Shown here: piece after piece, positions 8,861-30,798 of the stretch
Numbering within the stretch: position 1 is the stretch's first letter
Layout: the number at the start of each line of letters is the position of its first letter
NCBI GenBank assembly: GCA_008330645.1
Contig: VLTN01000007.1
Span: forward strand, 248,001 to 312,000
Direction: 5' to 3'
DNA from: Cafeteria roenbergensis
Taxonomy: Eukaryota; Sar; Bigyra; Bicosoecida; Cafeteriaceae
Length of the DNA stretch: 64,000 bases
Translations under genes and position numbers: made by a program
The notes under the pieces: model-generated
The model's input: only the letters and a program-made list of their open reading frames with translations
Databases searched by the model: none
What the model was told of the DNA's origin: nothing

Positions 8861-11800
8861 CTACCCCCGAGGCCTTGCGCCAGGCGCGTGGCCCACAATG
8901 ACGCTCCTGCCGCCGGACAGGTGGCGCACCCGGAGCTTGTCTACGGGCCACTTGCGCTTGTCCACGCGGGCCATGAGCGCCGCCTTGTACTCCTCCCACT
9001 GCTTGTTGTCCGTCTGCCGCGCGCGCAGCGCGTCGTCGCCAGGATACACCGGTGCCTTGGCCTCGATCACCTCGCGCCTGTCCGAAGTGAACACGCCCGG
9101 GTCCACCTTGTGCTTGGGGATGACCACCACTTCGCAGAGCGTCTCCGCCACCACTGTGGCGGCCGAGAAGCCCGACACCGGGTCAGTCAGTGCCTGCTCC
9201 GCAAACAGGCTGGGAGGAAAGAGCGACAGGATCCGGGCGCCCAGAGACGCGGGCGGCGGAGTCGGCCCGCCGCCAGCCTTTGGTGCGCGGCCGGCGGCTG
9301 CCGAGCCAGCGGCGTCCGAGGAGCGCCTGCGCCCGTCAGGGCCGCTGCTGGGCGCCAGACCGGCTGGCGCATCGGCCTCGGTCGCCCCCGCCTCCGGCGC
9401 GGCTGGCTTGGGCGCCGCCGTGCCCAGGGCCCGGTCTCGCAGCCGGCGCTTACGCGCGCGCCGCTCCGCCTCAGCATCGGCCTCGGCAGCGGCGGCCGTC
9501 TCGCGTGCCGCCAGAATGGCCAGCTTGCGTCTGAGGGCGGCGAGCAGGTCCCGCTGCAGCTGCCGCCTGTGGGCGTGCACGGCAGTGCGCTCCCACGGTG
9601 CTGCCATGCGGAGAGGGTAGGCCCGCTGGCTGCGGCTGAGGCGCTCTGCACGGCGCTGGATGGTCTGGCCGAGGGCCTCGGGCGTGATGGTCGCGGCGAG
9701 CGCAGCCGCCCCAGCGCCGCGGTCGCCGAGGCCTCCGCCGTCCTCGTCGTCATCCTCCGCGGCGGCGGTTCCCGGGCCCGCTGTGCTGCCTCGCCTGCGC
9801 CGCCTGCGAGCGGCGGCGCCAGGCCCCTCGTCCTCCCTGCCGTCGCTGTCTGCGTCGGCATCGATGTCACCGGGGATCACGGGCAGGTCTCCCGTGGCTG
9901 CTGCGTCCGGCAGCATGTTGTGGTGGAACCGGTAGCCGTAGTTGGCCTTGGACAGCGCGTCGGCCAGCCTTCGAATCGCCGTATTGATGCTTGCCAGCTC
10001 GTCGGAGAACCGGAACGCCCCAGCCATTCCCCTCGACAGCAGGCAAGCTTCCGCCGGCAGGGATGCCTGCGCGACGATCACGTCGCCCTCGTGGTACACG
10101 CGCGTCCGCGACACTGTGGCAAGCTGAAGCAAGTCGTCCTCAGAGAGGAACGGGAAGGCCCCTGACCGCCTGATCAGCGCCTTGCGCTCCTCCAGCTGCT
10201 GCAGCGAAATGGCGTCCACGCCGAGGACGAAGAAGTCGGACGCGGGCACCTGAACCACCAGCGCAGCGGTCTCGGCCACCACTGCGGTCGCGTGCTGCTG
10301 TCCCCACAGCAACGCCAGCTCGTTCACGGTGTCCCCGGGGACGAGCTCTTCCAGCGTCACCTCGTGGCCTCCCGGCTCTTGGCCAGCCGCCTCGTCGCCG
10401 ACGGCGCCGGCTGCCGCCGCAGCACCGTCGGCGCCGGAGGCGTGCTCCCCGCGCGCCGACGCCTCCGAGCTCGCAGAGGGGTGCTCCTCTGGCGCGCTGG
10501 CTTCCCGGCCGTGTCCCCCCGGCGAGGGGCGCGCCGACGACCCGGCGGGCGTCACGCTGCTGCGGCCGCTGCGCGCGGTGGCCCCTCGAGAGGTGCTCTC
10601 GCCCGACCCCGGCCCCGCCTGCGGCTGGGTATATCCGACAGACACCTTCACCAGGGCCATGCCCGTGACCAGGATGCCGAGCCACTCCGCGTCCTCGCCC
10701 TCCCTCGTCATGAGCTCGCCCCCTGCGTAGCGCACCGCCCGCACCTGCTGGCACAGCCGCCGGCGTGTGGCGGGCGCGCAAGCCCGCACCAGCGAGCACC
10801 CTGTCAGCGCCGCGGCAATGCGCGAGCACTGCTCTGGGCTCCGCGTGCCGGGCGCCTGCTCCAGCGCCTCGTCCAGCTGCGTTGGCCGGCCGAAGATCGA
10901 CGTGTACAGGTCCGTGCTGCCGCCCACCACTGCCGACAGCTCAGCAGGCGGCGGTGGCACCAGCACCTTGGCGCCCCGCTCCGGTGCCGGCGAGCCGCCG
11001 CGCCCGTCGTCGCTTCCGTCCGCGAACTGCGCTCTGGTCCGGGAGGGGCTCTGCCGCCCGCCAAGCTCGTCGCCGTAGTCAAGACCGAGAATGCTGTCCC
11101 CGCCCGAAACCAGCCCAGGTGACTCCGCTCCGGCAGCGTCGATCACGCTGGCGCTTCCTCCAGAGCGGGCACTGTCCGGCGCAAAGCCGGTCCCTGCGAG
11201 ATCTGGGTCGCCGGCGCGCTGGGCAGCTCTTGCTCCCGTCCAACCGTTCGCCCTCGCCATCACCTCCTCGATCCGCAGCGCCGCCGCAAAGTCGCCAAAC
11301 GCGCCGGAATAATCCCCCAGGCGCCGCCGCAGCACGCCCCGCAGCCGCAGCGCGTCCACGTCCGGCGGAAAGTCGGTGCAGCGCCGCAGCCGGAGCCCTT
11401 TGCCCACCTCCTCGCGGTCGAGCGGAGTGGCATCCACGTCGTCGGCCCCGACGTCGCCGTACACCTCCGCAGCGAGGGAGCGGTGGACGAAGGCCAGCTC
11501 CCGGCCGGCGGCCAGCGACGGAGACGGTGCCGGCAGAGCTACCGAGGTGCCCGGGCCTGCCAGCCCTGCCTGGTCGTCGCTGCCGGGGCTGGCCACGGAG
11601 CCCGCGGCGGACCAGCGACCCGACGCGCCATGCATGCTGCGGCCCTGCGGGCCCGACCGGCGGAACGACGACTTGGTCTTGATTGCGCCCCTGGACCTGC
11701 CGATGGAGGCCACGGAAGGCGGGCGGCGCAACGAGCGGCTGCTCCCCGCCCGCAGAGGAGCGCCATCGGCCCCGCGCCCGCCAGGCCCGGCTGGGTCGCC

Positions 11801-14800
11801 CCACGCCGCGACTCCTGGCGCGCCCGTGCCGAGCGTCACGGTCATCCCGTCGAGGCTGCCGAGGTCGTTCAGCGACAGCAGCGACGGCTCGCCCGGCACG
11901 GATGGAAGGGCCTGCAGCGCGCCCATGCTGCGGGTCAGGGACCGCTTGGACTCGTCGCCCAGGACGGCGCCGTCTGCCGGACCGTCGCCCAGCTCTCCCC
12001 TGCCGAGCGCGCTGAGCCTGGCGTCAATATCGTCGCGAAACCGAGCCTTGATCACCGGCGGAAGGAGGTGCGGGGCCAGCGTCTTCCTGAGGCTGGCGAC
12101 GACAGACGGCATGCACGACAGAGCCTCCCAGTTGATGGGCGGAAGCCCCGCCGCAATGCCGCCTGCCTGGCCGTCCCAGCCCCCTCCCGCTGTGCCGTCT
12201 GCCCCTGCGAGCACGCCCGCCACCTGCGCCGCCCTGGCGCGCTGCAGCGACGCGACGGACGAGGCCAGGCTTCCCACCGGCGCTAGCTCGCTGGGGCCCG
12301 CCGCGTCAACGCGGCCGTCGCCGCCGGCCATCGAGGCGTCATCCTCCTCTGGCTCGTAGGGGCCCGTTGCGGCAGGGAGGCTCGCACCCGACATCGCCAT
12401 CGCGCGCGAAATCGACCGCTGAGCGAGCGACATCCCTTCCTGCTCGCTCACCACAACGGACACAACTGGCTCCATCGAGCCGGCCCCCTTCCAGCGCCTG
12501 TCGTGTGTGGCGAGCGCAACGCCCAGCTCCTGCATCGCCCCTTCAATGTCCCCCATCCCGGCCCGAGCGAGCGCCATGTTGAAGCGGTAGTCAGCTGACC
12601 GCGGCTGCGCCCGGACCGCGACCTCCAGCTGCTCGGCAGCCTCCGCGAACCGCCGCAGGCGCATCAGCGCCACGCCGCGATAGCAGCGGCTCACGTGGCA
12701 GTGCGGGTTGGCGCGAGAAGCCTGCTCGAAGCAGTCCAGCGCCGCATCGTCAGCGTCAGGCAAGGCTCGGTTCCGGCTTGCCCCCCTGATGAGGTGGGGA
12801 TACGACCGCGCCCGCACCCCCACCACGGCGATGGGCGGCTCCTTCTCGGTGCCTGCGAAGAGAACCTCGGACCCTTGCCACCCGCGCCAAGCGTCCTGCA
12901 TCGTCTTTCCAGCCAGGTGCTCCGGGGGGCGGCACCAGCGGGCGCCCACGTTCGGACCTGCCGCAACCCTGGCCTTGGCCGACCCGCGGCGCTGCTGCCC
13001 CCGCCTGCTCGCCGAAGTCGAGCTGCCGCCGCCGCCGCCGCCGCCGCCGCTGCTGCCTCGGAGGCTGCCCCCCGCAGCATGCGTGGCGGGAAGCGACGGC
13101 AGCGTGGCAGCCCGGACAAGGCTGGTGCCCTCCGCCCTCGCCCTGGCCGCTAGCGACGCACGGAGCGCCCCGGCTTCAGCTTGCATCTCTTTGGCGGCGA
13201 CACTGCGCGCCTTTTCTAGAGCCCTGTGCGCCCGGGACGCGTCCAGCAGCACCGCGCGAGCGCGCCGCTCCTCCAGGCGAGTCAGGCCCAGGGCCTCGAT
13301 CAGCGCCTCCCCTGCCACGCCTTGCGTCGCGCAGCCCGGCACCAGCGCCACATCCACCGGCGGGGGCGCCCACGCCGCCTCGCTGTCCGCGCCCTGGTAC
13401 CGCAAGCCGCCCTTGAGCATCCGCAGCTTCGCGGTCGCGCCCGACACGCCCGACCCGCCCTCGTGGCTGTCCTGCAGCGCGTTCAGCCGCTCCGCCACGC
13501 GCGCAGCCGTCACATCCGCGTCGCTCGCCAGCGCGTGCACCAGACGTCGGCAGCTGGCCGCGAGCCTCGCTGCCGCCCTGCGCCTCGCGCGCGTGGCCAC
13601 GGCAAAGGCGAGCGCTCTGGCCGCCGCTTCACGCGCAGACGCAGCCGCGTCGCTCAGCGCCTTGGCGTCGTTGGTGCGGGCAGGGACCATGCCCTTGGCC
13701 ACAGCCAGCGCAGTCCAGGACGCAGAGGGAGCCAGCCGCACCAGCGCCTGCGGACAGAGCTCCATGCTGCCGCCGAGCGGCGCGCTTCCAGAACCGGCGC
13801 TCAGGCGCGCGGAGGGCAAGGCGGACGTCGACCGGGTGGCCAGCGCCGAGGAGCCAGCGGACACAGCCAAGGGCCCGGACCTCAGCAGCCCGCGAGCAGA
13901 CGACCGGCCGGTGAGCAGCGACTCCGGCGCAGCTGGGGGAGCTGCCGCCGGAAGCACCTCCACCGCCGCCGCCCACCCACCCCCCAGCCCGTCGAGCACC
14001 TGCAGCTCGTCCGGCACCGCTTGCAGGGGCTTTCCCGCCCGCAGCACCACGCCCCTCGGCTCCAGGGCGGCAGCCAGCTTGTGAAACCGCTGGATGAGGA
14101 CCGGGTCCCCAACCGCAGGGCCGCGCGGTGGCAGGTCGGCCCCCGCCCTCCTGGAGGACCGGCGCCGCGCCATCGGGGGTGGGCCGCCTCCCCCGCCTGC
14201 CGCCGGCGAGCTGGCAGCGGCCTCGTGCCGTCGCGAGGAAGTTGACGCGGCGCTGGCCACCGCTCGCAGGCGAGGGCCGGCGCGGCGAGACGCTGATGCC
14301 TGCCCGTCGAGCTGGTTCCGCGGCGGGACCTCGCGGCAGAGCGAGGCAGCATCGGCGCAGTCCACCTGCCACGGCGTCTGCTGGGGGAAGAGGGCGAGGG
14401 ACCCCTCCGGCTGGAGGTCGGCGACGTCATCGGGCGGAGGCCGCGGAGCGGCAGCCGCGGCAATGCGCGAGGCAGCCACGGCAGCCCACCCTGGACGGTC
14501 AGCGGCGCTGCAACGAAGCGTGTCCACGGCGAGCGTTGTGGACACCCTGCCCACAGACGGGGCGCCGCTGCCGCTGGCGCCGCTCGTGGGGCCGTCTGGG
14601 TCGCCGTCGCCACCGGCGTCTCCAGCCTGGCCTCCGCTGCCGCGGGGTGGTGCCGGCGCGCGGCGCCGCAGCAGCGACCACGCCCGCTCCATGGCCGCCG
14701 CCGCCTCGCTGGTATCCAGCCCAGGGAAGCCCGAGGCCCTGCTGCTGCGCGCCGTGGCTGGTCCTGACGACCACGGGGGGTGCGCTGCCGCCCCTTTCAT

Positions 14801-17742
14801 GCTAAGGGCTGGCACGCGAGCCGCCAGCGCGGCAGCGAACCCACCACCCCGGGCAGCGAGGCGGCTGGCCGCGCCGCCTGCCGCTCCCACCGACGAGAAG
14901 GGGTCTCTTGCCCGGGCGCCCAGGCCCTTCCCCGCGCTGCTGCTGCTGCTGCTGCTGCTGCGGCTTGGGTCGGCCGTCGGGCTCCACTCCGGCCTGTCAG
15001 CTGGCCACGACACCAGCCCTGCGGTGGAGACGGCGGCTCCCCTCGTGAGCGCGTCCACGGTTTCGGCCAGCCACTCCGGGGACGCCGCCACTGCCTGCGA
15101 TGCTCCCAACGCCACCGCGTCGCTCATCAAGGAGTCGGCAAGCCGCTCCAGCATCGTGGTTCGAGGCGAAACGGCGGCGGTTTCGGCGGAGCGGGAGCCG
15201 CGCTCGGCGTCACGGCGCAGCAGCATGGAAAGCGTCGCCGCCTCCTGGCTCGCGGTCGTCGCCTGCTTGTCGTCCGCGGGGCGAAGCCGCAGCCGCCGCA
15301 CGGCCATCACCCGGGACGGGGGCACGAAGGTCGGGTCCAGGCTTCCGGCCCCCCTCTCCGCCTCCGCGTCCGCCTCCAGCAGCGAGTTGGCAGCCTCTTC
15401 CCTGCTTCCGGGGGCCGGGGCGGCTGGCACCTCGACCCTCGCCGCGGAGGGGGGTCCGGAACCGGCGCGGGCAGTTCCACGCGCACTTCCTGCCGAGCCC
15501 AGGCGCCGCTCAGACGTCGCCTGCCCGCCCGCCGCTGCCCCGAGCGACGGCCCCTCCCGCGCCTTGGACGCCAGGCCCAGCGCCGCGAAGCCTGCCGCCG
15601 GCTCGCTCTTGGTCGCCGCCGTGGTGCTGAGGTCCAGGGCCTGCAGAAGGAAGTGCTGGGACACCCGGGCCAGCCTCGTCACCAGCGCCTGCTGCTCTCG
15701 GGGACTGAGGCCGTGCCCGGGCGCGCTGTCGGGGGCTTCTGCCGCCGACGCTGACGCTGATGCTGGTGTCGGTGCTGGTGCTGCCGCGGCGGAGGCCGAG
15801 GCGGCGGCCCCGCTCGCGCCTCCTCCTCGCGAAGCGGCGCGACCAGCTCCCCGCGAGCTCGGAGTGCGGGCGGCGGCTGCGCGCCTCGCCGCCTCGGCCT
15901 GCGCCGCCTGGTCCTCGAGCTTACCCGCCGCGTCGCTCGCCCGCACATCGGAGAACCAGGACCAGTCCACAAGCTCCGCTGCGGCGGCGCCCGCCGCAAA
16001 GGGCGCGACGATGCGGGCCAGTGAGGCGGCGACCCGCGACCGGTCCGCCAGCTTGGGCTGGGGCTGTGCCTGCCGACGCAGCGACGCCGCGACAAGGCTG
16101 AGCCGGCGCCCCGTCGCTGCCGCTCGGCGACTCTGGTCCGCCGCCGTTGCCGTGGGGAGAGTCGAGAGCACCGTGTCGGCCATGGAGATGCGGCTGCTGC
16201 GCCGCTGGGCTCGGCCGGCACCCGCTTCGCCCGCCTCCACGGCCTCTGCCTCGGCAAGCAGCTCGCGCACGCGCGCGAGCACCGTGGGGCCTCCCCGCTG
16301 CACGCAGTTCCAGGCGGTTCGCAGGGCCACTTCGCTCACTCCGGGGGCGGATCGCCGCAAGGCCGCAATCAGCTCCTGGTCGGCGGGCGCGCCCTCCGTC
16401 TCCGCTTCCGCGCCCTCGCCAGCCGCGGGCACCGCGACGCGCTGCGACTGGCCCAGCCGGGGCGTCTCGGCCCTTCCCGGCGCGGATTCCTCGGCTGGAC
16501 CGTGCTCAGCGGGCGCGTCCCGCGTTGGCGCCCACTGCCGCCGCAGCTGCGCCACAGCCGCCGCCTCGAGCCCGCCTGTCACCTCGCTGAAGGCTGCCTG
16601 GGCCACTGATGCCGTCCTGACCAGCGACAAAATGCGCTTTCCCACGCTGGCCGCCTCGATTGGCCGCTCGGCGATGGCGTCCACACCCAGCGCGGTGGCT
16701 CGTCGCAGGTCAACGGCGTCGTCCGGCCTGGACGCGATCGTGGCCAGTGCCGGCGCAATGATGATCGTGGGGAGCGGCCGCTGCCGCTTCCGGAGTGCCT
16801 GCAGCACCTCTCGCGTCGTGCCGGGGGCCAGCTCGATTAGCAGGGCGGCGCAGCGGACGCCATCGCGCCGCCGGTCCGAGGCCGCGGCCACCGCAACCGT
16901 CGCCTCTTCCACGACCGTTACCAGGAGGCGCTTCGACGCTGCGGCGGCAAACTGCTGCATGTCCCGCTTGGACGACGCGCCGTCGCAAAGCGCGATCACG
17001 TGCGGCCGGGAGTCGCTCAGCGGCGGACCTGCGATGCGGGGGAGCCCCAGGCAAGCAGCGAGTTGAGACACAGAGCTGGCGTGCCGCGCGTGGGGCCGGG
17101 GACGAGCGACGGGCGGACCCCGTTCCGGGACGCGGTACTGCAGGAGCTGGCCCGCCGCCACCGGCCACGAACCAAGCCCAGCCCGGGGAAGCGACAAGCT
17201 GCGAGCCGACTCTGCAAGCGAGGGCCCTCTGACGCAGACCCGCACAGCCTGATGCGGACGGGCTCACATGGGATGCCGCGAAGCAGGCGCCTGACTGCGG
17301 AGGGCTTCTCCGTGCTCGCGTCGCCTTGGAAGGGCTCGGCGGCGGCGGCAGCGTGTTCGGACGCGCTCGGCGCGGGATGGCCGCGCTCGGCCCGCGCTCG
17401 CTCCAAGGCGTCGTGTGGTCGCCCCACGTCTGCAAGCATGCGCTGCCGCTCGTCGTCCGCAGCCAGTGACATGCGGACCTGGATGCTGTGCACGTGCTGC
17501 GCCTCGTCCGTCTCGAGCAGTTGCTTCACGGTCCGCGATTCCGACCCGCCAGACTTGGCCCCGGGCGCGCCCCCTTGCCTCTCGGGCTTCGCGTCGATCG
17601 AGTCCAACCTGCGGTCCAGCTCGCTGAGGCGCTTGGTCGTTCCCGTTACCTGTGCCGCGTCGGCGGCGCCGCTCGGCAGCGAGCAGCGACGCGAGGTCGC
17701 CCTCGAGGCACCGCCCCCCAGGCCGGGCGAAGCTGAGTCCAT
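8861..17742 (-). CDS. Giant protein: pseudo-receiver, TPRs and two degenerate cyclic-nucleotide-binding folds
   Basis: The protein has 2880 residues. Exon 1 is 17742-17268 (MDSASPG start, good context); the intron 17267-17029 (GTGAGC...ATCGCAG) joins in phase 1; exon 2 is 17028-8861. Residues about 165-295 form a response-regulator receiver fold, with strand ALLIELAPG and loop AIAERPIE. The phospho-Asp position is Glu224 and the conserved Lys is Arg280, so it should not be phosphorylated. TPR-like hairpins lie at about 1585-1680 (CYRGVALMRLRRFAEAAEQL) and near 2050. Two cyclic-nucleotide-binding folds follow. The first (about 2225-2430) has the cassette NELALLWGQQHATAVVAE. The second (about 2440-2800) has FAEQAL then SAATVVAE. 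Both lack the phosphate-binding Arg, and both are interrupted by long low-complexity inserts. Most of the rest is Ser/Ala/Gly-rich. It is probably a cytosolic scaffold; I know no named homologue. Confidence 0.85.
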
Positions 17743-18114: not shown

Positions 18115-21100
18115 TCAGGCCGACCCTGAGCGAATTTGACGCACCAGATCGCGCGCGTGGCGCGTCTGCGGGTGGTCTGGCCCCATGGTCATGGCAAAGG
18201 CCGCCGCAGCGTCCTGCGCCTCCTCCGCCGCAAGCGCGCTGTTGCCCACGCTCAGCAGGCAGAGCGCCAAGTTGCCCGACGCCGACGCGTACAGCGGGTG
18301 GGCTTGACCGACCTCCGCAAGGGCGGCGGCCTTGCACTCCCTGAGCAGCTCAATGGCTCCGTGGTCGTCGCCCAAGCTCATCATGCACGCCGCGATCTCG
18401 CTGCGAGTGACGCTGCAGCTGAGGTGCGACCGCCCCAGCGCCTGCACCTGCATGGCGAGCGCCTCCTCGTGGATGCGCATCGCCTCTGCCGGGCTGCCCT
18501 GCTGCTTGAGGCAGATGGCCGCGTTGCTCATCGCGGCTGCCCGGAGCGCGGTGCCGCGCTGCCCCAGGCCTGCGCACGCGTCGGCGCTGGCTCGAAACGC
18601 CGCGACCGCCTCTTCGAGGTCGCCTTTCGATTGCAGGCAGTCTCCGAGGCTCCCCAGAGCTGCCACCAGCGCCTCCAGGTTGCCGTGGTCCTGTCGCTTG
18701 GCGAGCTGCACCGCCCTGCGCAGCGCCGGCTCCGCCTCGTCGAACCGGCCGCGGGAAGTCAAGCAGGCACCCAGCGCGCTGAGCGGCGCCACGAGCGACG
18801 GGTCGTCGCCCCCCCTGGCCGCCTCGGCCTCCGCCACGCAGCCTCGAATCTCGCGCAGCGCCTCCTCGCTCCGGCCCGCTGAGAGCAGTGCGTTCGCCAG
18901 GTTGGACCGCATGTCCAACGTGCTGGGGTGGGCGTGACCCAGCGCTGCCGCCATGATCGTCAGGCCCCGCGCCAAGCTCTCCGCCGCTGCGCTGAACTTG
19001 CCCATGTCGGCCATGCAGCTCGCCGAGTTCCCGAGCGCTGCAGCGAAGCCCACACTGTCAGAGCCATCCGTGGCTGCCCGCAGGCGCAGGCATCGCGTCA
19101 GAAGCCGCATTGCAGCTTGCGGGTTGCCTTGGGCGCGAAGCGACGTCGCCAGCGCGTTCAGCGCCATCTGTACAACGTCGTGCGTCTCTGGGAACGCCGC
19201 CTCTGCCGCGGCCAGAGCCTGGCTGTTCAACTCCACCGCCCGGTCGCCGCGCCCGGCCTCGGACGCGCACACTCCAGCGACGAGCATTGCCTGGCACCGC
19301 AGCGCTGCCGCATTCGGCTGCCCTGCCACGGCCGGCGCCTCCAGCGCAGCCTGCAGGTGCCCCAGGAGCTCCGCCGCGAGCAGTGGATGCCCCCAGACCC
19401 GCGCCTCCTGCGCCAAGAACATGAGAGGCCGCGCCAGGAGCGGCGCCGCGCGCCCTCCGTCGTCATCACAGTGGGCCCTGAGCTGCGCTGCTGCCGCCAG
19501 CGACAGTGCCTCCACTTCCTGCCTGAGGGACGGCGCTGTCGACCCCAGCTCTGCTGCTCGGTTCATGACGGACACCGGCCCGTGCCACGCGAGGCTGCCC
19601 GGCGGGCCGCAAGCCGTCCGCTGCCGGTGTGCCAGCTCCCTCAGCAGGGTGGCCATGGCTGCGGCAGTGCTCGTCTTGAACTCCGCGCCGTGGCCAGCTG
19701 CTGCGCCCCTGCCCTCGTGGCTTGCCCCGCGGCTGTCCATCTTGGGCGACACCGCCGCGTCGGCCTGCTCCGCCATCCACATCGCCACGATCCAGTGCGC
19801 GGACCCGGAATCGTCGCACACCGCCCTCGCCACCGCAGCTTGCTCCGAGGCTCGGAGGCGCATCCCTTTGCACGCCACGGCCCGCGCCGCGGCGCATGCC
19901 ACGAGCCAGGGGCCCGAGGAGGGCAGGGCCGCGCGGCCCTGCCAGCGGGCGAGCCGCTCGAGGGACGCCGCCGCGCTGGACCCTGCCCTCGGAAGGCACG
20001 CGCACACCATAGCAAGGTCGGCCAGGCCCGGGTGGCAGGGGGTGGCGCTGGCCCCTGCGCTGGCGGCAGGCGCGCTGGCGGCAGCCACCTTCGCTGCAGG
20101 CCCAGCGGGCGCGGCCACTTCCGCCCGAGCGATGCCGGCCGCGCTCCCGCCCCACATGCGCCGCTGCTCGAGCCACACAAGGCAGCAGTGCCGCAGCCCG
20201 ACGCCCCTGCTGTGCAGCCCTCGCTTCACCGCAGCGCGGAGACTCGCGGGCGAGTCCCCTCGGCCGGCGGAGGCTGCCTTGGACACCTCCTCTGCCACGG
20301 CCATGGCGGCCTCGCGCAGGTTCGCTGGGCCGAGGAGGGCCCGCGTGGCGCGCTCCAGAGCCGCTCGCTGCTCGGGGGGCGCTCTGGCCAGCAGCGCGTC
20401 GGGGCTCAGCGGCGGGCAGGCGGGGTCGAGGGCTTGCAAGACTGCTCCGGCGTTGGGCCTGAAGAGACAGGAGAGGTGCGACGCGCGCCAGTACGCCCCG
20501 CACTCGGGGAGGAGCACCACAGTTTGGCCGCTTGCGGAAGGAACGATGGATACGCCCGTGTCACTGGCTCCGGCCTCGCAGTCGTCCGGCAGAGCTGGAG
20601 CCCAGGGCGGGATGCGAGGGTCACAGGCCCGCGCAGCCGCAACAGCAGCCGCTGCAGCAGCCGCAGAAGACGCTCTGCCGCCGGCATCCCCACCAGCAGC
20701 GCCGTTCCCCGTCCCTGCGGGGGCGGGAAGCTCCACCACACAGACGGTGTCCTCGTCGTCGGCCGGTCCAGGCGCCGCGGCCGCGGGGGTTTCGCCCCCG
20801 GCACCGACCCTCGACCACACCACAGCCACCCTCCCGCCTGCCGCCCCGCGGGCAGCGCTCCCAGTCCAGTAGGCCTCCGGGATGCAGAGCCTGTGCGTGT
20901 CAGCGACGCACCGCTCGCCCGTGGGCAGCAGGTGAACCTCCACGTCGAACGGCAGCACTTGCTGGAACGCATAGCCGCCACCGCCGGCGCGAAATGCCAC
21001 TGGCAGCCGCTCCGCCGCAAGTCCACGCAGCGGGAGCGTCTCGCTGGAGTGCGTCACCGCTGTGGGCTGCAGCGGGTCGACGATGGCCCCCGACGCAGCC

Positions 21101-22134
21101 TGCACGGCCGCGCACACGCCCGTCGCCTCACTCTGCGCCCGCCCGGCCCCCAGGCGCTCCAGCAGGGCCTCGCTCTCCGGCCCCATGACGGGCAGCCTTG
21201 CTGGGTCGCGAGGGAGCGCGACGCGCGCGTAAGTATGGACCGTCACCTGCCTCGGCTGGGCGAAGCTCGGCCCGAGACGGAAGGCTGCCGCGAGCGAGCG
21301 GGCCACCTCAGCACAGTCAGCTGACAGGTTTGCGGTGGCATTTGCGTCCTCTGACCCGAGGCGCAGCGTGGAGCGGCCCAGGGGAAGCAGGGAGGTTGCC
21401 TGCACGCGATACACACGCTCCGGCCGGCCGTCGGGCCCGCGGACGGTCACGTCCGTGCAGGCCGCCACAGGCACCGTCAGGTGCGGGCTGTCCACCACGT
21501 TGTGCAAGAAGGCGAGCGCGGCCAGCTCGTGCTTGGCCGCCTTGTCCGCCATCACGGCGGAGCCCTTGTAGATGCCGGCGACGTCGGAGGCGATTTTGAA
21601 AAAGGCCCCGGCACGAGTGTCCGACACTTTGACGCCGCCCGCTGTGCCACGGGACACGAGCCTCAGGCTGCCGTCGGCGCGAAGCTTGCACAGCGCCTCC
21701 TCCATGCGCCGAGAGCCTTCGGCCTCGGTGCCAAACGAGCTCGCCTCATGGAAAGCGCGCGCGATGGCCCCCGCAGTCCGCGAGGCCATGAGCGAGAATT
21801 GCTCTCGCAGCTCGGCCAAGCGTTGCAGGCGCGCTGCGTGCTCGTGTGGCGTCGTTGTCACTTGGTCCTTGAGCCGCGAGAGCCTGGCTTGCAACTCTGG
21901 CATCGCATCCGGATGCGGCTCCCCTGTGCCCGAGCCACAGCCCGCGCTGACAGGTCCCAGCACGCCACCCGGCTGCAAGGCTGACTCGTAGCTTGCAGCT
22001 GCCGCCATCGCCGCGCTCGGAGCTGCTTGCAGGAGCGCGTCGTAGGCACTCAGATCCTTCGGCGGCAGCCCCGCGCAGGGCTCGCAAGCCAGAGGCGATG
22101 CGGAATAGTCGCCGCTCATCGCAGGGTTGTCCAT
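18115..22134 (-). CDS. Clu-domain protein with C-terminal kinesin-light-chain-type TPRs
   Basis: The protein has 1339 residues in one exon, starting MDNPAMSGDYSAS. Upstream in-frame ATGs at 22332 and 22422 would overlap the divergent neighbour, so I prefer 22134. Residues about 160-300 match the Clu domain of CLU/CLUH proteins, with KAAKHELAALAFLHNVVD, then SLLPLGRSTLRLGSED. About 395-415 has the later Clu motif (FDVEVHLLPTGERCVADTHRL). About 550-600 has HLSCLFRPN and PLSPDAL. Residues about 935-1335 carry about nine 42-residue TPRs of the kinesin-light-chain type. CLU proteins bind mRNAs for mitochondrial proteins and keep mitochondria dispersed; here that is inferred from the family. It lacks an obvious GSKIP-like N-terminal part. 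Alternatively it may be a Clu/TPR paralogue with another role. Confidence 0.82.
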   Translation of the reverse strand: MDNPAMSGDYSASPLACEPCAGLPPKDLSAYDALLQAAPSAAMAAAASYESALQPGGVLGPVSAGCGSGTGEPHPDAMPELQARLSRLKDQVTTTPHEHAARLQRLAELREQFSLMASRTAGAIARAFHEASSFGTEAEGSRRMEEALCKLRADGSLRLVSRGTAGGVKVSDTRAGAFFKIASDVAGIYKGSAVMADKAAKHELAALAFLHNVVDSPHLTVPVAACTDVTVRGPDGRPERVYRVQATSLLPLGRSTLRLGSEDANATANLSADCAEVARSLAAAFRLGPSFAQPRQVTVHTYARVALPRDPARLPVMGPESEALLERLGAGRAQSEATGVCAAVQAASGAIVDPLQPTAVTHSSETLPLRGLAAERLPVAFRAGGGGYAFQQVLPFDVEVHLLPTGERCVADTHRLCIPEAYWTGSAARGAAGGRVAVVWSRVGAGGETPAAAAPGPADDEDTVCVVELPAPAGTGNGAAGGDAGGRASSAAAAAAAVAAARACDPRIPPWAPALPDDCEAGASDTGVSIVPSASGQTVVLLPECGAYWRASHLSCLFRPNAGAVLQALDPACPPLSPDALLARAPPEQRAALERATRALLGPANLREAAMAVAEEVSKAASAGRGDSPASLRAAVKRGLHSRGVGLRHCCLVWLEQRRMWGGSAAGIARAEVAAPAGPAAKVAAASAPAASAGASATPCHPGLADLAMVCACLPRAGSSAAASLERLARWQGRAALPSSGPWLVACAAARAVACKGMRLRASEQAAVARAVCDDSGSAHWIVAMWMAEQADAAVSPKMDSRGASHEGRGAAAGHGAEFKTSTAAAMATLLRELAHRQRTACGPPGSLAWHGPVSVMNRAAELGSTAPSLRQEVEALSLAAAAQLRAHCDDDGGRAAPLLARPLMFLAQEARVWGHPLLAAELLGHLQAALEAPAVAGQPNAAALRCQAMLVAGVCASEAGRGDRAVELNSQALAAAEAAFPETHDVVQMALNALATSLRAQGNPQAAMRLLTRCLRLRAATDGSDSVGFAAALGNSASCMADMGKFSAAAESLARGLTIMAAALGHAHPSTLDMRSNLANALLSAGRSEEALREIRGCVAEAEAARGGDDPSLVAPLSALGACLTSRGRFDEAEPALRRAVQLAKRQDHGNLEALVAALGSLGDCLQSKGDLEEAVAAFRASADACAGLGQRGTALRAAAMSNAAICLKQQGSPAEAMRIHEEALAMQVQALGRSHLSCSVTRSEIAACMMSLGDDHGAIELLRECKAAALAEVGQAHPLYASASGNLALCLLSVGNSALAAEEAQDAAAAFAMTMGPDHPQTRHARDLVRQIRSGSA

Positions 22135-22330
22135 CCACGCGCAGGGGCGAAGGGCACAACCAGCGGCCTGTGGGCCAGAGTGGATATCCTGCGTCGGTCC
22201 TGGCAATGTTGCGCCGCGCGCCGTATATGCGCTCCAAAACGCGGGAGCCGCGCGCCTGCTCGCCCCGAGCACTGGGCTGGAGGGCAGACCTCGGGCAGGC
22301 AGGCCCTCGCCCGTGCTCGATTGACGCAGC
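22135..22330. promoter_or_regulatory. Divergent promoter of Clu/TPR (-) and GT18 (+) genes
   Basis: This is a 196-bp shared upstream region. The only AT-rich patch is CCGTATATGC at 22221-22230, about 100 bp ahead of the plus-strand ATG. It is a possible TATA-like element, but I cannot assign it to one gene. Confidence 0.4.
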
Positions 22331-24427
22331 ATGTCCGCTCGGCGCCCAGCAAAGCATGCGGGCGCCAGGCCGTCGAGGCCAGCGCTGGCATTCGCGACCG
22401 GAGCCCTCGTGGGGGCTGCCATCGCAGCCGTCGCGCTTCGCTCGCTCGGGTCGGTGCCGCAAGTATGTCAGGCCCCCGAATCACTGCCAACTCGTGCCGG
22501 CGGTGCATGGCAGGCAGCTCATTGCCCCCCGCCTTCCGCGGAGGCTTGCGCAGCGCTCGCACAAGTGCCGGAGGTTTCCGGAGCAGAAGGCACGGGTGCT
22601 CCGACCAGCCCAGTGCAGGGCACACCAAGCGCGTTACAGCCCGACAGGGCCGCCGGCCTTGCTCATAGAGAAAAGGCCGAGCCCAAGGCCGAGCCAGAGG
22701 CCGTTCCAACGGCCGAGCCGGGGCTCGCCTCCGGGGACTTGGAGTCGATGCCGGGCTGCGCCCCCACCGGCGGCAGGGAGTGCCCCGTCCCTCGCAGCGC
22801 GCTCTTGTTCACAATGGACACGCTTCCCAGCTACGTCTCGGCCGCACGGCGCGGAGGGCCGTCTGGGGAGATCCTGGTGCGAGAGGGTCTCCAGACGGCG
22901 CTCTGCGAGCTCGGGTGGCGTGTGCACACTGCCAGCAGCGACTCCGAGGCGTGGGGCATCACCGGCCGGTGCCTGGCTCCGGGGGAGGGCTCCCCGTCCT
23001 CGACCACAGGGCAGGGCGGCTGGGCAGGCCGCGGGGCAGCGAGCGGCACCGCGCGCGGCCGGCTGGGAGGTCCGTCCGCCGACCCGGTGCCGTGCCCGTC
23101 GGTGGTGATTGTCGACGAGTTCACCGCCGTGGACGGCTCCCCGGGCGTGCGCGCCGCGCTGCGCCGGCACGCCCGCGCCGGTCGCGTGTTCGTCATGTCG
23201 TTTTTCGGCAGAGCCCTCCCGCCGCAGCTTCTGGCCGACGTCGGCGCTGCGAATGTGCTGACGACGTACGCGACGCCCGCGTCGGGCACCGGGCAGGATA
23301 TGGGCTTCTCTGCGCTGGGATTCGCCCTGGACCGGACGGGGGGCACGGAGGCGGAGGAGGAGGAGGCGGCCGGCGAGGCCGAGCGACTGTCCTCTGCTCT
23401 GGGGAGGTGCCGTCTGAGCGGACGCGTGGCGGGCGAGTGGGGCGGGAAGGCGGCCGCGCGCTATGCAGCCCTGGCCGTCGCCGAGCACCGAGCGGCGCGC
23501 GACGCCCACGGGATGGGGCAGATGCCGCTGCGGCCAGACCCTGTTCCGGCCCTGCTGAAGCAGCAGGAGGAGGCCGGCGTGCGCTGCGCGGCGTACGGCC
23601 TGCTGTGGGGCAAGGAGGACCAGTACGTCGCCCCGCAGATGCAGTCGATCAGTGCGCTGCTGGGTGCGTTTGGGGACGGCGCGGCTGTGGACCCGCGCTG
23701 GGGCGGCGGCGTGCGCAACCTTGTGGCCAAGCGCGACATCAATGGCGCGGTGCTGCAGTGGGAGGTGGAGCCAACCCTGGCGGCGCCGCTGCCGCCGCCC
23801 GCGATGGGCGACGGGGCACTGGAAACGCTGCCGGCCCTCGAGGGGCGTTTGTGTCTCTTTTCCACAGCGCGAGGCGGGCCTGGGCAGGGAAGCTCGCTTG
23901 CCGCGACCAAGGGCCTGATCACGCTGGGCCGCGTCGAGCCGCGAACGTGGCACAGCCTCCTAGAGGGCGCGTGCTTCCTGCTCGGGATGGGCCGCCCCCT
24001 GGCGGGCCCGTCCGCGCTCGAGGCGATGGCGCGGGGCGCGCTGTTCGTGAACCCCGAATTCCCTCCGGTGGGCAGACGGCGCTCCGCCGGCAAGCCGCCC
24101 TTCGAAACTGCCCCCAACCTTCGCGGGTTCTCTTCCCAGAACCCGGGCGCAGCGGCACTCGGCCCCGAGCCGCACGACCCAGGCCTGCCAAGGGCGTGCA
24201 ACGTCTCGATGGCTGACGACGGACGGCTCGACGTGCCCAGTCTCATCGCCTGCGTGAGGCGCTCCTTGCTCCACGCCCGGTGCCAGGTGGACACGACGGT
24301 TCCGCTCGTGGCCCGCGGCGGCCAGGACGCGGGGCGCAGCCAGCGGTTCAGCGGGCACGGTCCCAACCCGTGGTTCTCGCGTGAGGCCCTGAAAAACCGG
24401 ACGCGGCGGCTGCTGCCCGAGCTCTGA
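22331..24427 (+). CDS. GT18 family (MGAT5-like) N-acetylglucosaminyltransferase
   Basis: The protein has 698 residues in one exon. The N-terminus is that of a type II Golgi protein: a short basic tail, a membrane anchor at about 18-36 (LAFATGALVGAAIAAVA), then a Pro/Ala/Glu-rich stem. The C-terminal half matches alpha-1,6-mannosylglycoprotein 6-beta-N-acetylglucosaminyltransferase. It has TWHSLLEGACFLLGMGRPLAGPSALEAMARGALFVNPEF (split here as about 539-577), followed by GKPPF and SSQNPG. The vertebrate enzyme has the same order: WHSLL, GPAPLEA, FLNPKF, KPT, SQHP. The reaction in the family is transfer of GlcNAc from UDP-GlcNAc to the core mannose of N-glycans in the Golgi. The N-terminal regulatory part is shorter and divergent. 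Membership in GT18 is confident; the exact acceptor is inferred. Confidence 0.83.
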   Translation: MSARRPAKHAGARPSRPALAFATGALVGAAIAAVALRSLGSVPQVCQAPESLPTRAGGAWQAAHCPPPSAEACAALAQVPEVSGAEGTGAPTSPVQGTPSALQPDRAAGLAHREKAEPKAEPEAVPTAEPGLASGDLESMPGCAPTGGRECPVPRSALLFTMDTLPSYVSAARRGGPSGEILVREGLQTALCELGWRVHTASSDSEAWGITGRCLAPGEGSPSSTTGQGGWAGRGAASGTARGRLGGPSADPVPCPSVVIVDEFTAVDGSPGVRAALRRHARAGRVFVMSFFGRALPPQLLADVGAANVLTTYATPASGTGQDMGFSALGFALDRTGGTEAEEEEAAGEAERLSSALGRCRLSGRVAGEWGGKAAARYAALAVAEHRAARDAHGMGQMPLRPDPVPALLKQQEEAGVRCAAYGLLWGKEDQYVAPQMQSISALLGAFGDGAAVDPRWGGGVRNLVAKRDINGAVLQWEVEPTLAAPLPPPAMGDGALETLPALEGRLCLFSTARGGPGQGSSLAATKGLITLGRVEPRTWHSLLEGACFLLGMGRPLAGPSALEAMARGALFVNPEFPPVGRRRSAGKPPFETAPNLRGFSSQNPGAAALGPEPHDPGLPRACNVSMADDGRLDVPSLIACVRRSLLHARCQVDTTVPLVARGGQDAGRSQRFSGHGPNPWFSREALKNRTRRLLPEL

Positions 24428-24703: not shown

Positions 24704-27700
24704 ATGGCCTCTGGGGTGTCGGGGTGCCTGCTCCGCGAAGCAGGGCCCCTCTCGACGGCTCACGTGAGCTGCGGCTCCCCTCGCTGTTCTTGGCCAGCCT
24801 GGCTAGCAGGTGCCCCTCTCACCGAGTCTCGCCGCGCAGCGCGGGCCAGGTGGCACGGCCCCTGCGCCACAGAATGCCGGTGCTCCCGCCCTGACCCTGG
24901 GCGTGCCTCCGTTGTCGCCGCGCTCCCTCGCAGCTTGTGGGCCAGTCGGTCCTCGTTGCATCGTTCGTGCTTGGAGCAATTACCGTCCCGACGGTCTGGT
25001 CGGCTCCGCCTTTGCTGGTGCCCCTGCTTCGGATCTTGGGCGCGAGCAGCGCGCTCCTGGCCGTCGCGCTGGCATGCGACCTCGCTCTCCTCGCTGAGCA
25101 GGCCGGGGGCGGCTGTGGCGAGGCCCTCGGCTGGGTCGTGGGAGTGGGAGTGACAGCCAAACTGGCTGCGGCAGCTGCAGTGGCCGCTGGCGCGATCCAG
25201 GTGCGGCCTGCCATGGCCCGCCTTGCGCACAAGCTGTCGGCCTTTGCCGCGAATCGCAACAAGCAGCTCTTGGACGCTGAAATGGCCGCCCAGGAAGGGG
25301 TGCTGGGCTACTTTGGCCACAAGTGCCGCAACCCCCTCCACGTCGTTGAGAACGCCCTCGAGGCCGTCGCGGAGGTGGGGGACCGGCTCAGGGAGGCGTG
25401 CGCTGCAGACGAGGCCGCGATGCCCGCGGGGGGCAGGCAGCACGCTGTCAGGCAACGAGCAGGTGCGCGCGGAGCGTCCAGCGCAAGCGCAACCCCCGAG
25501 CTTTCCATGGCGCCCCGCCACGGCGGCCTGTCCCCCGTCGACCCTTGGGCGCATCGCGGCGGCCCTCTCCCCAGGCCAGTCGTGATGGACTTTTGCGAGG
25601 ACGTGGCTTCCGCCACCGCTGCCGTCTCGGCCATCCGGTCGCTTGTTGACACGCTGCTCGACTACGGAAAACTGCGCGCCCACGGCCTCAAGCTCACGCC
25701 TCGGCCCGTTTCTGTCAGCCGCATCATTGCCAGCGTCTGCCTTGATGCAGGTCGTGCCGGGGCCACGGCATCCGTGCCCGTCGTTCATGTTCCGGGCAAC
25801 ACTCTCTTCCTCGACGAAGGTGTCGATGCGCCCTCCCACGAGTCTGCGGTGGCGCTGACCCTTCACAGCTCGGCCTCGCTTCGGCCCCCTGGGGGGAACG
25901 CCCCTGCTCCCCTCCCGGGGGTCGCAGACAGCCAGGAGCTCGGCCGTCCCGACTCGCCCGGCTGCGCGTCGCCTGTGCCACCTTCGCGACCCGCTGCCGG
26001 CGCAAGCGCGGGCGTCGCCGAAACGGAGCAGTCCGCCCAAGACGCCTCGTCCGTCCTTGTGACAAGGCTTGACCTCCACAGCTCGCGCCCGTCCCTCGAA
26101 TCGAGGCACAGCAGCTTGTCCAGCGCCTCCCCGTCCAGCCGGGGCGCGAGGCGTTCTCCCGGGCAAGGCGGCCGCGGCATTTCGCCCTCGAGGGTGCAGC
26201 GCAATGCCGGCGTCGCTGGCATAAACCACTCGAGGACGTCGCTTCGGGCCCCGCCCACAGGCTCGGCTGCCGGGAGAGCCGACCTGTCGCGGCCAGAGTC
26301 CTTTGCAAGCACAGCAGGCGCTGGCGAAGAGGCTTCAGCGGTCAGCCTCGCCATGGAGGGCGGAGGTTCGGTTCGCTCTTCGTCAGGAAGCGCCAAGCAG
26401 CGCCATCGCACCGACTCGGTCGGTTTCTCTGCGCGACGGCCCATCGCAATGTCTGGCGCCAGGGTCGCGCCCCAGGCTTCCCCCGCCTCCAGCACTGGCA
26501 GCCGCCACCCGGCCCCGCCTCGCCCGCGGCGGGGTTCTGAAATCGCGCCGATTCACGTGCCTGGCGCGGCGTCGTCACCCGCTGCAGTCGCTCCGCAGCG
26601 AGGCGCTGGGGCGAACCCGGTGAGGACGCTGGTGGAAGCGGTCTCTGCAGCGTTCGAGGACCGGACAGTTGCAGGCAGCTCTGCAGACCACTCCCCCGTG
26701 CCAGCCGCTGGCACCGTGAGACGGCCCCCCCGTGGGCCCTGCTTTGTGCCCGAGGACGTGGTGATGGCCGACGACGCGCGTCTTGCCCAGGCGCTAGGGT
26801 GGGCTGTTGAGACGGCCATTGCCTTCACTCGGCGCGGTTTCGTGTGCGTGGCCGAGTGGGCCGAGGTTGACGAGCCGATGCAGGGCACGACCAGCCCGGA
26901 GCAACAGCGCAGGCAGGCCTCGGCTCTTGGCCAGTGGGGCGGAGGCGGCGGCGGCAGCGGCAGCAGCAGGAGGAGGATCGTTGAGCCTCAGAGAGAGGGC
27001 GCGCGGATGCAGCCCAACGGCGACTCGGCCGCAAGCGGTGCAGCGTGTCGGCCGTGCGGGGTGTTTCGCCGCGCGGGCATGCCCGAGGAGCGAAACGTCC
27101 GCCCGCATGAGAGCCACGCCAGAAGCAGCAGTAACAGCAGCGCCAGGCGCTCGAGCACATCCACGGACAGCGTAGGGCTCTTCGGCTCGCGCCCGGCCGA
27201 CGCCCCCGCGCCCCGCGGCGGCATGCAGCTGCACTTCGCCCCCGTGCTGCAGGGCAAGGACCTCGTGCCCAGGCAGCCTGGACCCCAGTCCTCTCAAGCC
27301 GCCTCTGCCGGCCCCGCCCAGCTCCCGGCCACTCGGGCTGCGGCCTCTCGGCCCCGCGCCTCGCCGCCGGCACCCCCCTTGGCCCCCGGCCCTGCACAGC
27401 TGCCGTCGCTTGTCCCGGGCCTGGGCCTCGGCGCCTGCCTCGTGCTGCGGGTGGTAGACTCGGGAGCGCCCGTCACGTCGCCAGCGCAGGGCCACGACTC
27501 GGTGGCGCTGCGGCTTGCGGACGAGGCGCGGGCGTCGCTAGCGGACGCAGGCAAGGTGACACGGCCGCCTCGCCCCGGCAGCCGGCACGATCGCACACCC
27601 GGCTCGGCTCGACAGCCGCAAGCCGCGACTGCTCGCAACGACGGCGCGCCTGCGGCTGAGGCGGCCGAGCAGCAGGGCGGCGGAGCCGTGTCAGAGAGCT

Positions 27701-30700
27701 CCGTGCACCGCAGCTCTGGCCTGGGAATCGCCGTGGCGTCGGCCGTTGTCAGGCTGTTCGGCGGGGCTCTCGTTGTGAGGAGGCTTGCGCCAGGCGATCC
27801 CACTCGCGTCAGGCTCGAGAGGGGGCTTGAGCGCTCGGGGCAGGCCGGGCACCTCGGCATCGCCGCGTTCGCGCAAGAGTCGCTCAACAGCTCAGAACTG
27901 TGGATTCCTCTGAGCGCCATCGAGGCGCCTCTCGGTGCCTCGCCGCTCAACTCGCGCCGCTCGTCCGTCGTCACTGTCGTCGAGACGTCCGGCTCTTCCG
28001 TTGGAGGCAGCGTTCACGCCATGGGTGCCAACGACGGCAACCCAGTGCCAGCGACCGATTCCCCCGGCGTGACGTCCTCGCGCTCCTTGGTTGAGTCCGC
28101 CTCGGGGGCACACATGTCAGGTCCAGCACACGGCGGCCCTGTGTGGCAACCCCCGAAGCAGACAGCCGTTGTGTCTGGGACGTCCGTCGTGGGCCTCGCA
28201 GGCGCTCGCGGAACTCGTGGCCTGGGCAGGCACGGCCGGCCGCTTGGCTCCGGCGCTGCACACGGACATGGCGGCCTGGGCGCCGGCAGCGCTGGGGGCG
28301 CCGGTGGGCAGCCTACGCGGGCGCCGAGGCAGCCGTTCATGCGAGCGTCCTCCCTGCCCGTGGACCTCGAGGCCCTGACTGGCAGCACCAGCTACGGGTC
28401 CGACAGCCCTGCAGGCGGTCGCGACCGGTCGGGTTCACCAGCCGACCCCCAAAGACCGAAGGGAGGCCAAGGCCGCTCGGCCCACGGCGCGGCTGGGGGC
28501 GAGGGGCGCAGTGCCCAGCGGGAGAGCCCCGTGCGCCAGGACGGCGCGGAAGCATCTGCCGCGGAGCATGGCTCGGCACTGACGCAGCAGGGCAGCCTCC
28601 GGAAGCGCTACACCTGGCAGTCGGCTCCCCGTCGAGGCGCGGTCAGGCCGGAACTTGATGACGACAAGGGCGAAACCGAGCCGCAAGAGGGAGCGCTCGC
28701 AACGCTGCCCGGGGCAGCTGCACAAGCTTCGCGCGCACGCCCTGACACGGGCATCCGGGTAGACACTGTCGCGGCCATGGCCGCTGCGGCGACGCCCCAG
28801 TTCGGCGACGCGGACGCAGACTCTGACAGCGCGTCGCAGCAAGCCGAGGCGGAGACCACGGACAGCCGCGGAATCCTGTCTCGCGGGCGGGACTCCAACC
28901 GGCCGACGAGCTTGGCTGGGTCCTGGAACAGCGGCGGCAACTCGTCCGTGAAGCTTGGCGGGCGGGTGGCAGGTGCTGGGTCGGCGAGGGGCCGCGGCGG
29001 GGGCAAGCGTCAGGGAGCTGGCCGAACCCTGGACAAGCAGTACCTGTCCTTGCCGGTGGAGGGCGTGGAATGGCAAAGGAGCCGGGCCAGTGCGGAGGGC
29101 GCGTCTGCGTCCCCGCCCACTGCTGCCACCGGTGCCTTCTTGCGGGGCAGCCGGGGCGGGACGACTGCAGCGTCGCACTCTGCGACGGCTAGGAGGGGCC
29201 GCGCGCGCGACAAGACCCGCGGTGCTGGCAGAGGCGCCAACGGGGCGCCCCCGCTGCGCTCCACGGTCTCGGCCGCGCCCGGCGGCGGCGGTGACCTCCC
29301 CGAGGCGGGCGTGCCGCGCAGCGACCACGCGGCCGACTTCCGCACCGCACACGGCGGCGGAAGGTGGGTGGCCGACCTGACGGCCGGGTCTGCCGTTGGG
29401 GGGCCCGGGCGGAGGCCCCAACATGGCGAAACTGTTGCGTGGCCGCAGGCTGACGGGCCAGACCCTGCATTTGTTGTGGGGCCGCGTGGCTGGCGCCGGC
29501 CGGGGGCGCGCGACGAAAGGCCAGGCGCAGCCCGAGAGGCCGGCGCCGCTCGGACCGCAGACGCCTCCCGCCCGCCTGTGGACGCAGCAGCTGCGCTGCG
29601 CTCGCACCGAACCGGCCGAAGGATCCCCACCGCCGCCGCCGATGGCGAGATGGCAGACTCCCCTGCCATGGCTCGCAGGCGCCGGGCTGCGGCCGGCAGC
29701 TCCCTCGGCGAGGTTTCCACGGCGAGGTCCGTGTCGGCCCGTTCGAGCGCACAGCGGGCCGAGCGGCGGCGCGCGCGCGCGCAAGAGCGTGCCGAGACGG
29801 GCAAGTCGAGTGAAACCGGCACCTCGCGCCCCCACGGCAGCGGGCCCAGCAACCGAGGGCTGGGAGCAGCGGCGGCCGCTGCTTTCGCTGACCCAAGCCA
29901 GCGGCCGCCGTGGGCGCGGCCGGATGGATCGCGGCTCCACGTGCTCGTTGTGGACGACGATCCAGCCGTGCGGCGCTCCACCACTCGCGCTCTGGAGCGG
30001 ATCGGCGTGCAGGTGACGGCGCTGACCGACGGATCCGAAGTTGTCCCGTTCCTGCGCCAAGCAGACGAAGCCGCAAGGGGCCTTTCCCATGCGGCCGACG
30101 TCGGCGGGCCGTCGTCGGGATCGGTTGCGGACGTGTTCCTCATCAGCTGCCTGTCGGGGTCGCATAGCCGCGGGGACGGCATGTCGCCAGGGCAGGCGTC
30201 GCCCTCCGAGCTTGCGGCGGCCGCCGTGGCTGCCGCTCCTCGCTACAGCACGAAGGGGCTTTCGCCGGTCCCGGAGCAGCTATCCACGCAAGCGAGCCCA
30301 AGGGACGCTACGGAGGCGGTGCCTGCAGCACCGATGACCCGCCGGGACGTGACGGCCGTCGCTTCCGGAGCCGTGGTTCGCGCAGCCGACGCTGGCAACA
30401 CCGCTGGGTCTTCTGTGCTGTCGTCGATGACCTCTGGGGGGCAGGAGGTGCGCCCGGCAGCAGCCACCGAGGCCACCAGGTCTGGCACGGCTTCCCCCTC
30501 TGCAGCGTCCGGAGCCAGCGCGCCCGTGCTCGTGGGCGCTGGCATCGACCTGATTCTGATGGACATCGTGATGCCGCAGGATGGAGAGTTCACTGCCCTG
30601 CAGCTGAGGTCTCTGGGGTTCGACAAGCCCATCGTAGCGGCAACAGGCACGGCGGCGCCGCAGGCCTTGGAGCGGTTCGTCCGCAAGAGCGGCTTCGACG

Positions 30701-30798
30701 AAGTGATCACCAAACCCTTCAGCCGAAGCGACCTGGAGCCGATCATCGCCAGGGTGCGCGATGGCAAGCTGCGCTCCGCAGGCGCCGGCGATCCGTGA
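24704..30798 (+). CDS. Membrane hybrid histidine kinase with expanded, degenerate catalytic domain
   Basis: The protein has 1974 residues. Exon 1 is 24704-24763 (ATG, 20 residues); the intron 24764-24933 (GTGAGC...CTCGCAG) is phase 0; exon 2 is 24934-30798. Three hydrophobic segments lie within about residues 22-105. The H-box YFGHKCRNPLHVVENA has His149. The ATPase domain is spread over about 800 residues by low-complexity inserts. The N-box reads DDARLAQALGWAVETAIAFT, with Thr647 at the Mg-binding Asn position. The G1 box is DSGAP (Asp862) instead of DxGxG. The G2 box SSGLGIAVASAVV (from 947) is intact. The C-terminal receiver keeps the acidic pair (1694-1696), phospho-Asp1897 (LILMDIVMP) and Lys1947, but has about 155 extra residues between them. 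Kinase activity is therefore uncertain, whereas the receiver looks functional. The ligand is unknown. Confidence 0.85.

Follow-up and report, generated by a model that had tools for sequence, protein, structure and literature searches.

How could a long protein be built around sensor folds that seem to have lost the residues with which such folds bind their ligands? This question is raised by a predicted gene on the minus strand of the 64-kb window, i.e. the whole stretch of DNA analysed here. The first-pass annotation had described it as a combination of a phosphomimetic receiver-like domain, TPR and two interrupted cyclic-nucleotide-binding (CNB) folds. The explanation that we prefer, and to which we give an even chance, is that of one nuclear gene, from a GC-rich and probably algal eukaryote with dyneins, for a 2880-residue, mostly low-complexity TPR-CNB scaffold, in which the sensor folds would act as docking modules and the N-terminal receiver would have decayed.

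Gene model and domain order

The 2880-codon gene, as previously annotated, runs from the ATG at 17742 to the TAG at 8861 once a predicted intron of 239 bp (17029..17267, read from 17267 to 17029, with the ends GTGAGC...GCAG) is removed. Exon 1 (17268..17742) would carry residues 1-158 and the first base of codon 159, and exon 2 (8861..17028) residues 159-2880 and the TAG stop, with the predicted splice joining 17268 to 17028. The stop-to-stop frame of exon 2 is open over 2800 codons, from 17263 to 8861. Codon log-odds were trained on exon 2 alone, so that the values obtained inside it, including those of the receiver-like region and of the inserts, are circular, while those of exon 1 and of the intron are not. 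Exon 1 scored +0.366 per codon, and the intron scored below zero whichever frame was read (-0.40, -0.18 and -0.14). Inside the training set, the lowest block of exon 2 was at +0.05, the receiver-like region at +0.60, and the CNB-A and CNB-B inserts at +0.27 and +0.43, respectively. The gene looks real, with a coding composition throughout. There is only a very small chance that the long frame comprises two or more genes, or that the inserts are introns. What could favour such a split is the place of the first Met in the exon-2 frame: at residue 182, it falls inside the receiver-like region (residues 160-300), which therefore depends on the predicted splice. The complete absence of in-frame stops across the 2800 codons and the positive log-odds of all exon-2 blocks and of both inserts, even if these belong to the training set, argue against it.

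Long intron-free frames exist in this genome, since its dynein frames span 4299 to 9451 codons. The assembly comprises 36.3 Mb in 167 contigs, and the GC content of the 64-kb window averages about 71%. We obtained 19 dynein heavy-chain, 42 CNB and 46 receiver matches in the assembly, all of them gene pieces and lower bounds; for the receivers, 48 of 83 candidates were scored, and a genuine receiver of the window, presented below, is not among the matches listed. It resembles the genome of Diacronema lutheri (Pavlovales), for which a size of 43.5 Mb, a GC content of 73.25% and 45% of single-exon genes are reported (PMC8379373).

In the middle of the protein, PF07719 (TPR) matched two stretches and reached 26.6 bits (E 5e-6), slightly short of the Pfam cut-off of 27, and designed TPR proteins of the PDB matched residues 1586-1666 with a whole-sequence E of 4e-4, no single stretch passing alone. 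The better PF07719 stretch lies inside a TPR block at residues 1583-1668 (12500..12757, minus strand), and these matches show TPR to be present in the predicted protein. A further, weak TPR-like repeat is suggested at residues 2050-2079 (11267..11356, minus strand), where the best PF00515 stretch lies (protein E 0.035). The C-terminal part matched PF00027 (CNB) with 42.5 bits against a curated cut-off of 27.5. With the Pfam matches for TPR and CNB and the hhalign match for the receiver, the order receiver-like region, TPR, CNB and CNB within one gene is supported, as initially proposed.

We then looked for relatives of this arrangement. In its own genome, the CNB region gave a next match, after the gene itself, of only E 0.22, and the receiver-like region matched nothing else at E 1 or below. 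As we read the tables, which are incomplete, every listed receiver match of the genome lies more than 10 kb from any listed CNB match. TPR was found by Pfam in none of 18 other CNB frames, many of them cut at locus ends and the set excluding L001-L005, L007, L008, L022 and L028. Every part of the protein has precedents. A search of open-licence PMC papers, which is weak evidence, turned up no case of the receiver/TPR/CNB combination.

The neighbouring gene on its strand (18115-22422, minus) has a Clu-like match (PF13236, 24.1 bits for a cut-off of 24) and many C-terminal TPRs. In Toxoplasma, Clu and TPR are combined in preconoidal ring proteins, and another ring protein carries CNBs (PMC12819142); the likeness is perhaps a coincidence. 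On the plus strand, a Sel1-repeat frame (PF08238, 6715-8616) is convergent with the studied gene, and a polycystin-type cation channel (PF20519, PF08016; 38465-41233) lies where the GC content drops to about 61-65%.

The N-terminal receiver-like region

The first-pass annotation had seen receiver spacing in this region (residues 160-300; 16604..17026, minus strand), with Glu224 at the phospho-acceptor Asp and Arg280 at the conserved Lys. When this region was aligned by hhalign with a profile of receivers from its own genome, it gave 58.5% and a score of 30.5, the best of 100 shuffles scoring 18.4 (0/100 as good). It was also ranked among 631 comparison windows cut from 29 other frames, namely 10 of the 64-kb window, some of uncertain gene status, and 19 CNB frames. 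Five of them outscored it, all located in the genuine split receiver of the 64-kb window; among the remaining 626, which are unrelated, the best score was 20.5, and none was as good. HMMER gave 10.8 bits, with none of 500 shuffles above and one at 10.1, and other builds of the receiver profile gave 10.6 to 12.9 bits, the best shuffle being at least 0.6 bits lower. A bacterial-only profile made of four sequences yielded 2.5 bits and was exceeded by 2/500 shuffles, that is, it did not separate the region from shuffles. With the same region, a Pfam scan returned no match up to E 1 and a PDB sequence search none up to E 10. The AF2 model computed without alignment was all-helical, with a pLDDT of 54, and is uninformative. 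The receiver fold thus has moderate support from hhalign, and Pfam, PDB and AF2 add none.

To place the key residues, 24 alignments were built by combining two receiver sets, four MAFFT settings and three ways of adding the query, so they are not independent. The Lys column holds Arg280, followed by Pro, in all 24, which is a conservative change and agrees with the earlier assignment. The acceptor column is occupied by Ala207 in 14 alignments and by Leu222 in the other 10, and in none by Glu224 or by any other Glu or Asp; no Asp occurs among residues 216-228. Since the alignments disagree between Ala207 and Leu222, the acceptor site and the first half of the fold are poorly placed in them. Glu224 and Arg280 do occur at the positions given, and of the two only Arg280 falls in the expected column.

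The idea of a phosphomimetic receiver that is permanently on was therefore left unsupported, because Glu224 is never found in the acceptor column. That Glu224 mimics a phospho-Asp and locks the receiver on now appears highly improbable: in its favour, it is by eye the first charged residue past the predicted third strand, but besides the result of 0/24 this would require, in our reading of the alignment, that the following loop be about two residues short.

We consider it fairly probable, from the profile comparisons, that the N-terminus carries a decayed receiver. A less probable, though still serious, alternative is that this region is a non-receiver domain whose pattern resembles the last helix, strand and helix of a receiver. 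Indeed, the default hhalign match is limited to residues 229-287, and the conflict over the acceptor column, the failure of the four-sequence bacterial profile, the all-helical model and the lack of a Pfam match all point the same way. On the other hand, a non-receiver domain would hardly be expected to top the 626 unrelated windows and the 100 shuffles, nor to present Arg280-Pro at the Lys-Pro position in every alignment. We therefore retain the decayed receiver as a predicted fold.

The CNB folds and their phosphate-binding cassettes

All CNB features lie on the minus strand, and the boundaries and insert lengths are ours. In CNB-A, the first half (residues 2220-2292; 10628..10846) is separated by a low-complexity insert of 85 aa (residues 2293-2377; 10373..10627) from the phosphate-binding half (residues 2378-2440; 10184..10372), which contains the cassette NELALLWGQQHAT. 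In CNB-B, a putative first half, recognized by eye, covers residues 2435-2506 (9986..10201) and overlaps the end of CNB-A; it is followed by a low-complexity, charged insert of 243 aa (residues 2507-2749; 9257..9985) and by the phosphate-binding half (residues 2750-2819; 9047..9256) with the cassette AEQALTDPVSGFSAAT.

A profile built from eight of the genome's CNB domains was used to score each half, against 300 shuffles for HMMER and 100 for hhalign. CNB-A without its insert reached 31.8 bits, and no shuffle of either half was as good (0/300, HMMER). Its phosphate-binding half gave 22.4 bits (0/300) and 89% by hhalign (0/100). The first half by itself was equalled by 1/300 shuffles in HMMER and by 5/100 in hhalign; it adds to the composite score and, when compared by blastp with 800 frames from CNB loci, matched the CNB protein L008 with an E of 1.9e-4. 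For CNB-B, the phosphate-binding half gave 12.5 bits (0/300) and 60% by hhalign (0/100). Its putative first half was equalled by 60/300 shuffles in HMMER and by 5/100 in hhalign, which is not above chance, and the joined domain, with 11.4 bits, gained nothing over the phosphate-binding half alone. The AF2 model of the CNB region, again made without alignment, had a pLDDT of 42 and no barrel. These sequence comparisons show CNB-A to be supported as a whole predicted domain and CNB-B in its phosphate-binding half only.

Both cassettes keep the Glu and lack the Arg of ligand-type cassettes, as had been noticed. In CNB-A, the Glu is retained (NELA) and the Arg is replaced by His in an ungapped alignment; in CNB-B, the Glu is also retained (AEQA), and the alignment places Ser at the Arg position, with a two-residue insertion. 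Among the other cassettes of the genome, the Arg is present in 24/35 and absent in 11/35. The underlying table holds 36 cassettes besides those of the gene itself, or 35 distinct ones, as one gene is listed both as L006 and as L027; eight of the 35 were profile seeds, and weaker domains are absent from it, such as CNB-B of the studied gene and, in both L015 and L016, the first cassette. Six of the 11 Arg-less cassettes keep the Glu, including that of L022, which has an Arg one place earlier. Since 11 of 35 cassettes lack it, loss of the Arg is not rare in this genome.

Since neither cassette retains the phosphate-clamp Arg, cyclic-nucleotide control is disfavoured, and CNB-A and CNB-B would not be expected to bind cyclic nucleotides, although the His that replaces the Arg in CNB-A could still contact a phosphate. 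A measured precedent is CNB-C of Plasmodium PKG, in which both conserved cassette residues are replaced and cGMP is not bound (PMC6628679). The assembly also gave 15 nucleotide-cyclase matches (gene pieces, a lower bound). Considering these together with the Arg retained in 24 of the 35 other cassettes, the cell probably does use cyclic nucleotides elsewhere.

Could the two CNBs bind something else? A non-cyclic ligand such as a nucleoside, held by the retained ribose Glu, would make the protein a sensor of another small molecule. This appears improbable to us, although both cassettes do retain the Glu and there is a known example: in trypanosomatid PKA regulatory subunits, the Arg is replaced by polar residues and purine nucleosides are bound (PMC10959531). 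The same paper relates this change of ligand to a Glu that replaces Ala202/326 of RIalpha, mutation of both leading to a 1556-fold loss of inosine potency. In the studied gene, this switching Glu is absent, both cassettes having Ala at the corresponding place (ELA, EQA). Nucleoside binding of the trypanosomatid type was weighed and then lowered for this reason.

Interrupted domains, the proposed scaffold and comparable systems

Seven other CNB domains of the genome are split or stretched by inserts in the loop that precedes the phosphate cassette, all in stop-free frames. By our boundaries, their lengths are 190 aa in L013, 44 in L014, 211 in L015, 143 in L016, 239 in L017, 171 in L019 and 35 in L020. 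All seven keep the cassette Arg, as seen for five in the cassette table and for L015 and L016 by eye. Of the three codon positions, the third has the highest GC in the inserts of L013, L015, L017 and L019 (four of seven), but not in those of L014, L016 and L020, so translation of each insert is likely. A similar organization is observed for the genuine receiver of the 64-kb window, carried by a frame of 1953 codons (24937-30798, plus strand), in which PF00072 matches the second half with 44.1 bits. Its halves (about residues 1669-1711 and 1868-1935) stand about 155 residues apart, and the LMDIVMP and ITKPF motifs of the second half are intact. Moreover, 18 of the 46 receiver matches start at profile positions 38-43, the pattern expected if receivers, too, are interrupted ahead of their third strand. 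A number of these matches form clusters on a single contig, perhaps as related copies. The interruptions of the studied gene are thus not special but a habit of its genome, as the seven CNBs with same-loop inserts and intact Arg and the split genuine receiver indicate.

CNBs, and by their match pattern receivers too, are thus repeatedly interrupted in this genome at a single favoured loop by low-complexity inserts that spare the binding motifs, so that such domains will be halved or missed in domain scans. This side result may matter as much as the scaffold itself. As for other CNB frames, L011 and L013 each combine a WW domain and a CNB within one long frame, and L021 is a sodium/hydrogen exchanger (PF00999) whose CNB match scores close to the cut-off, a combination that may be of the sperm-type NHE kind.

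Collectively, these data suggest how the protein could work. Docking of partners would fall to the TPRs. Both CNB folds of the C-terminus, interrupted ahead of the phosphate cassette, would be structural or docking modules rather than cAMP/cGMP switches, a role proposed because the phosphate-clamp Arg is missing from both. The N-terminal region would be a non-phosphorylatable, decayed receiver kept for binding, as in plant pseudo-receivers; the TOC1 pseudo-receiver, which is without the Asp, showed no phosphorylation in vitro (PMC2292679). The scaffold role is deduced from sequence. Counted against it are the lack of a Pfam or PDB match for the receiver, the poor AF2 models, the chance-level first half of CNB-B, a search of viral contigs that returned no relative of the CNB region, one of prokaryote genomes that returned none of the exon-2 protein, and the possible phosphate contact of the CNB-A His. 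As for the proposal that every ligand-controlled input has been lost, the loss of both CNB Arg argues against cyclic-nucleotide control. A bolder version, which we regard as possible but rather unlikely, is a scaffold made wholly of pseudo-sensors, in which the receiver and the two CNBs, all without ligand chemistry, offer their folds as docking surfaces beside the TPR, CNB-A perhaps being retuned through its His to a non-canonical ligand. Should orthologues share the losses, the protein would offer a clear example of sensor domains that outlast the loss of their ligands as structural parts, while the cell itself retains genes for nucleotide cyclases and numerous CNBs with the Arg.

Several known systems resemble parts of this protein. 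Plant pseudo-response regulators (TOC1/PRR) similarly have a receiver-like N-terminal domain without the phospho-acceptor Asp (PMC2292679); the receiver similarity is much weaker in the studied protein, and the Pfam scan found no CCT domain in it. PKA regulatory subunits and PKG share with it the CNB profile match, the cassette Glu and the tandem CNB pair; unlike them, it has lost both Arg, carries long inserts and TPRs, and shows neither kinase nor channel in the Pfam scan. CNB-C of Plasmodium PKG is likewise a CNB fold without the conserved cassette Arg, but it stands among working CNBs in a kinase and has the other cassette residue replaced as well, whereas both CNBs of the studied gene lack the Arg and both keep the Glu. 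Trypanosomatid PKA regulatory subunits also combine a replaced Arg with a kept ribose Glu, and differ by their switching Glu. Finally, the closest counterparts for the interruption lie in the same genome: L013 (WW), L014 (GAF), L020 (kinase) and L016 (NTE P-loop-like domain) have their inserts at the same loop, but they keep the cassette Arg and show no TPR in the stretches scanned.
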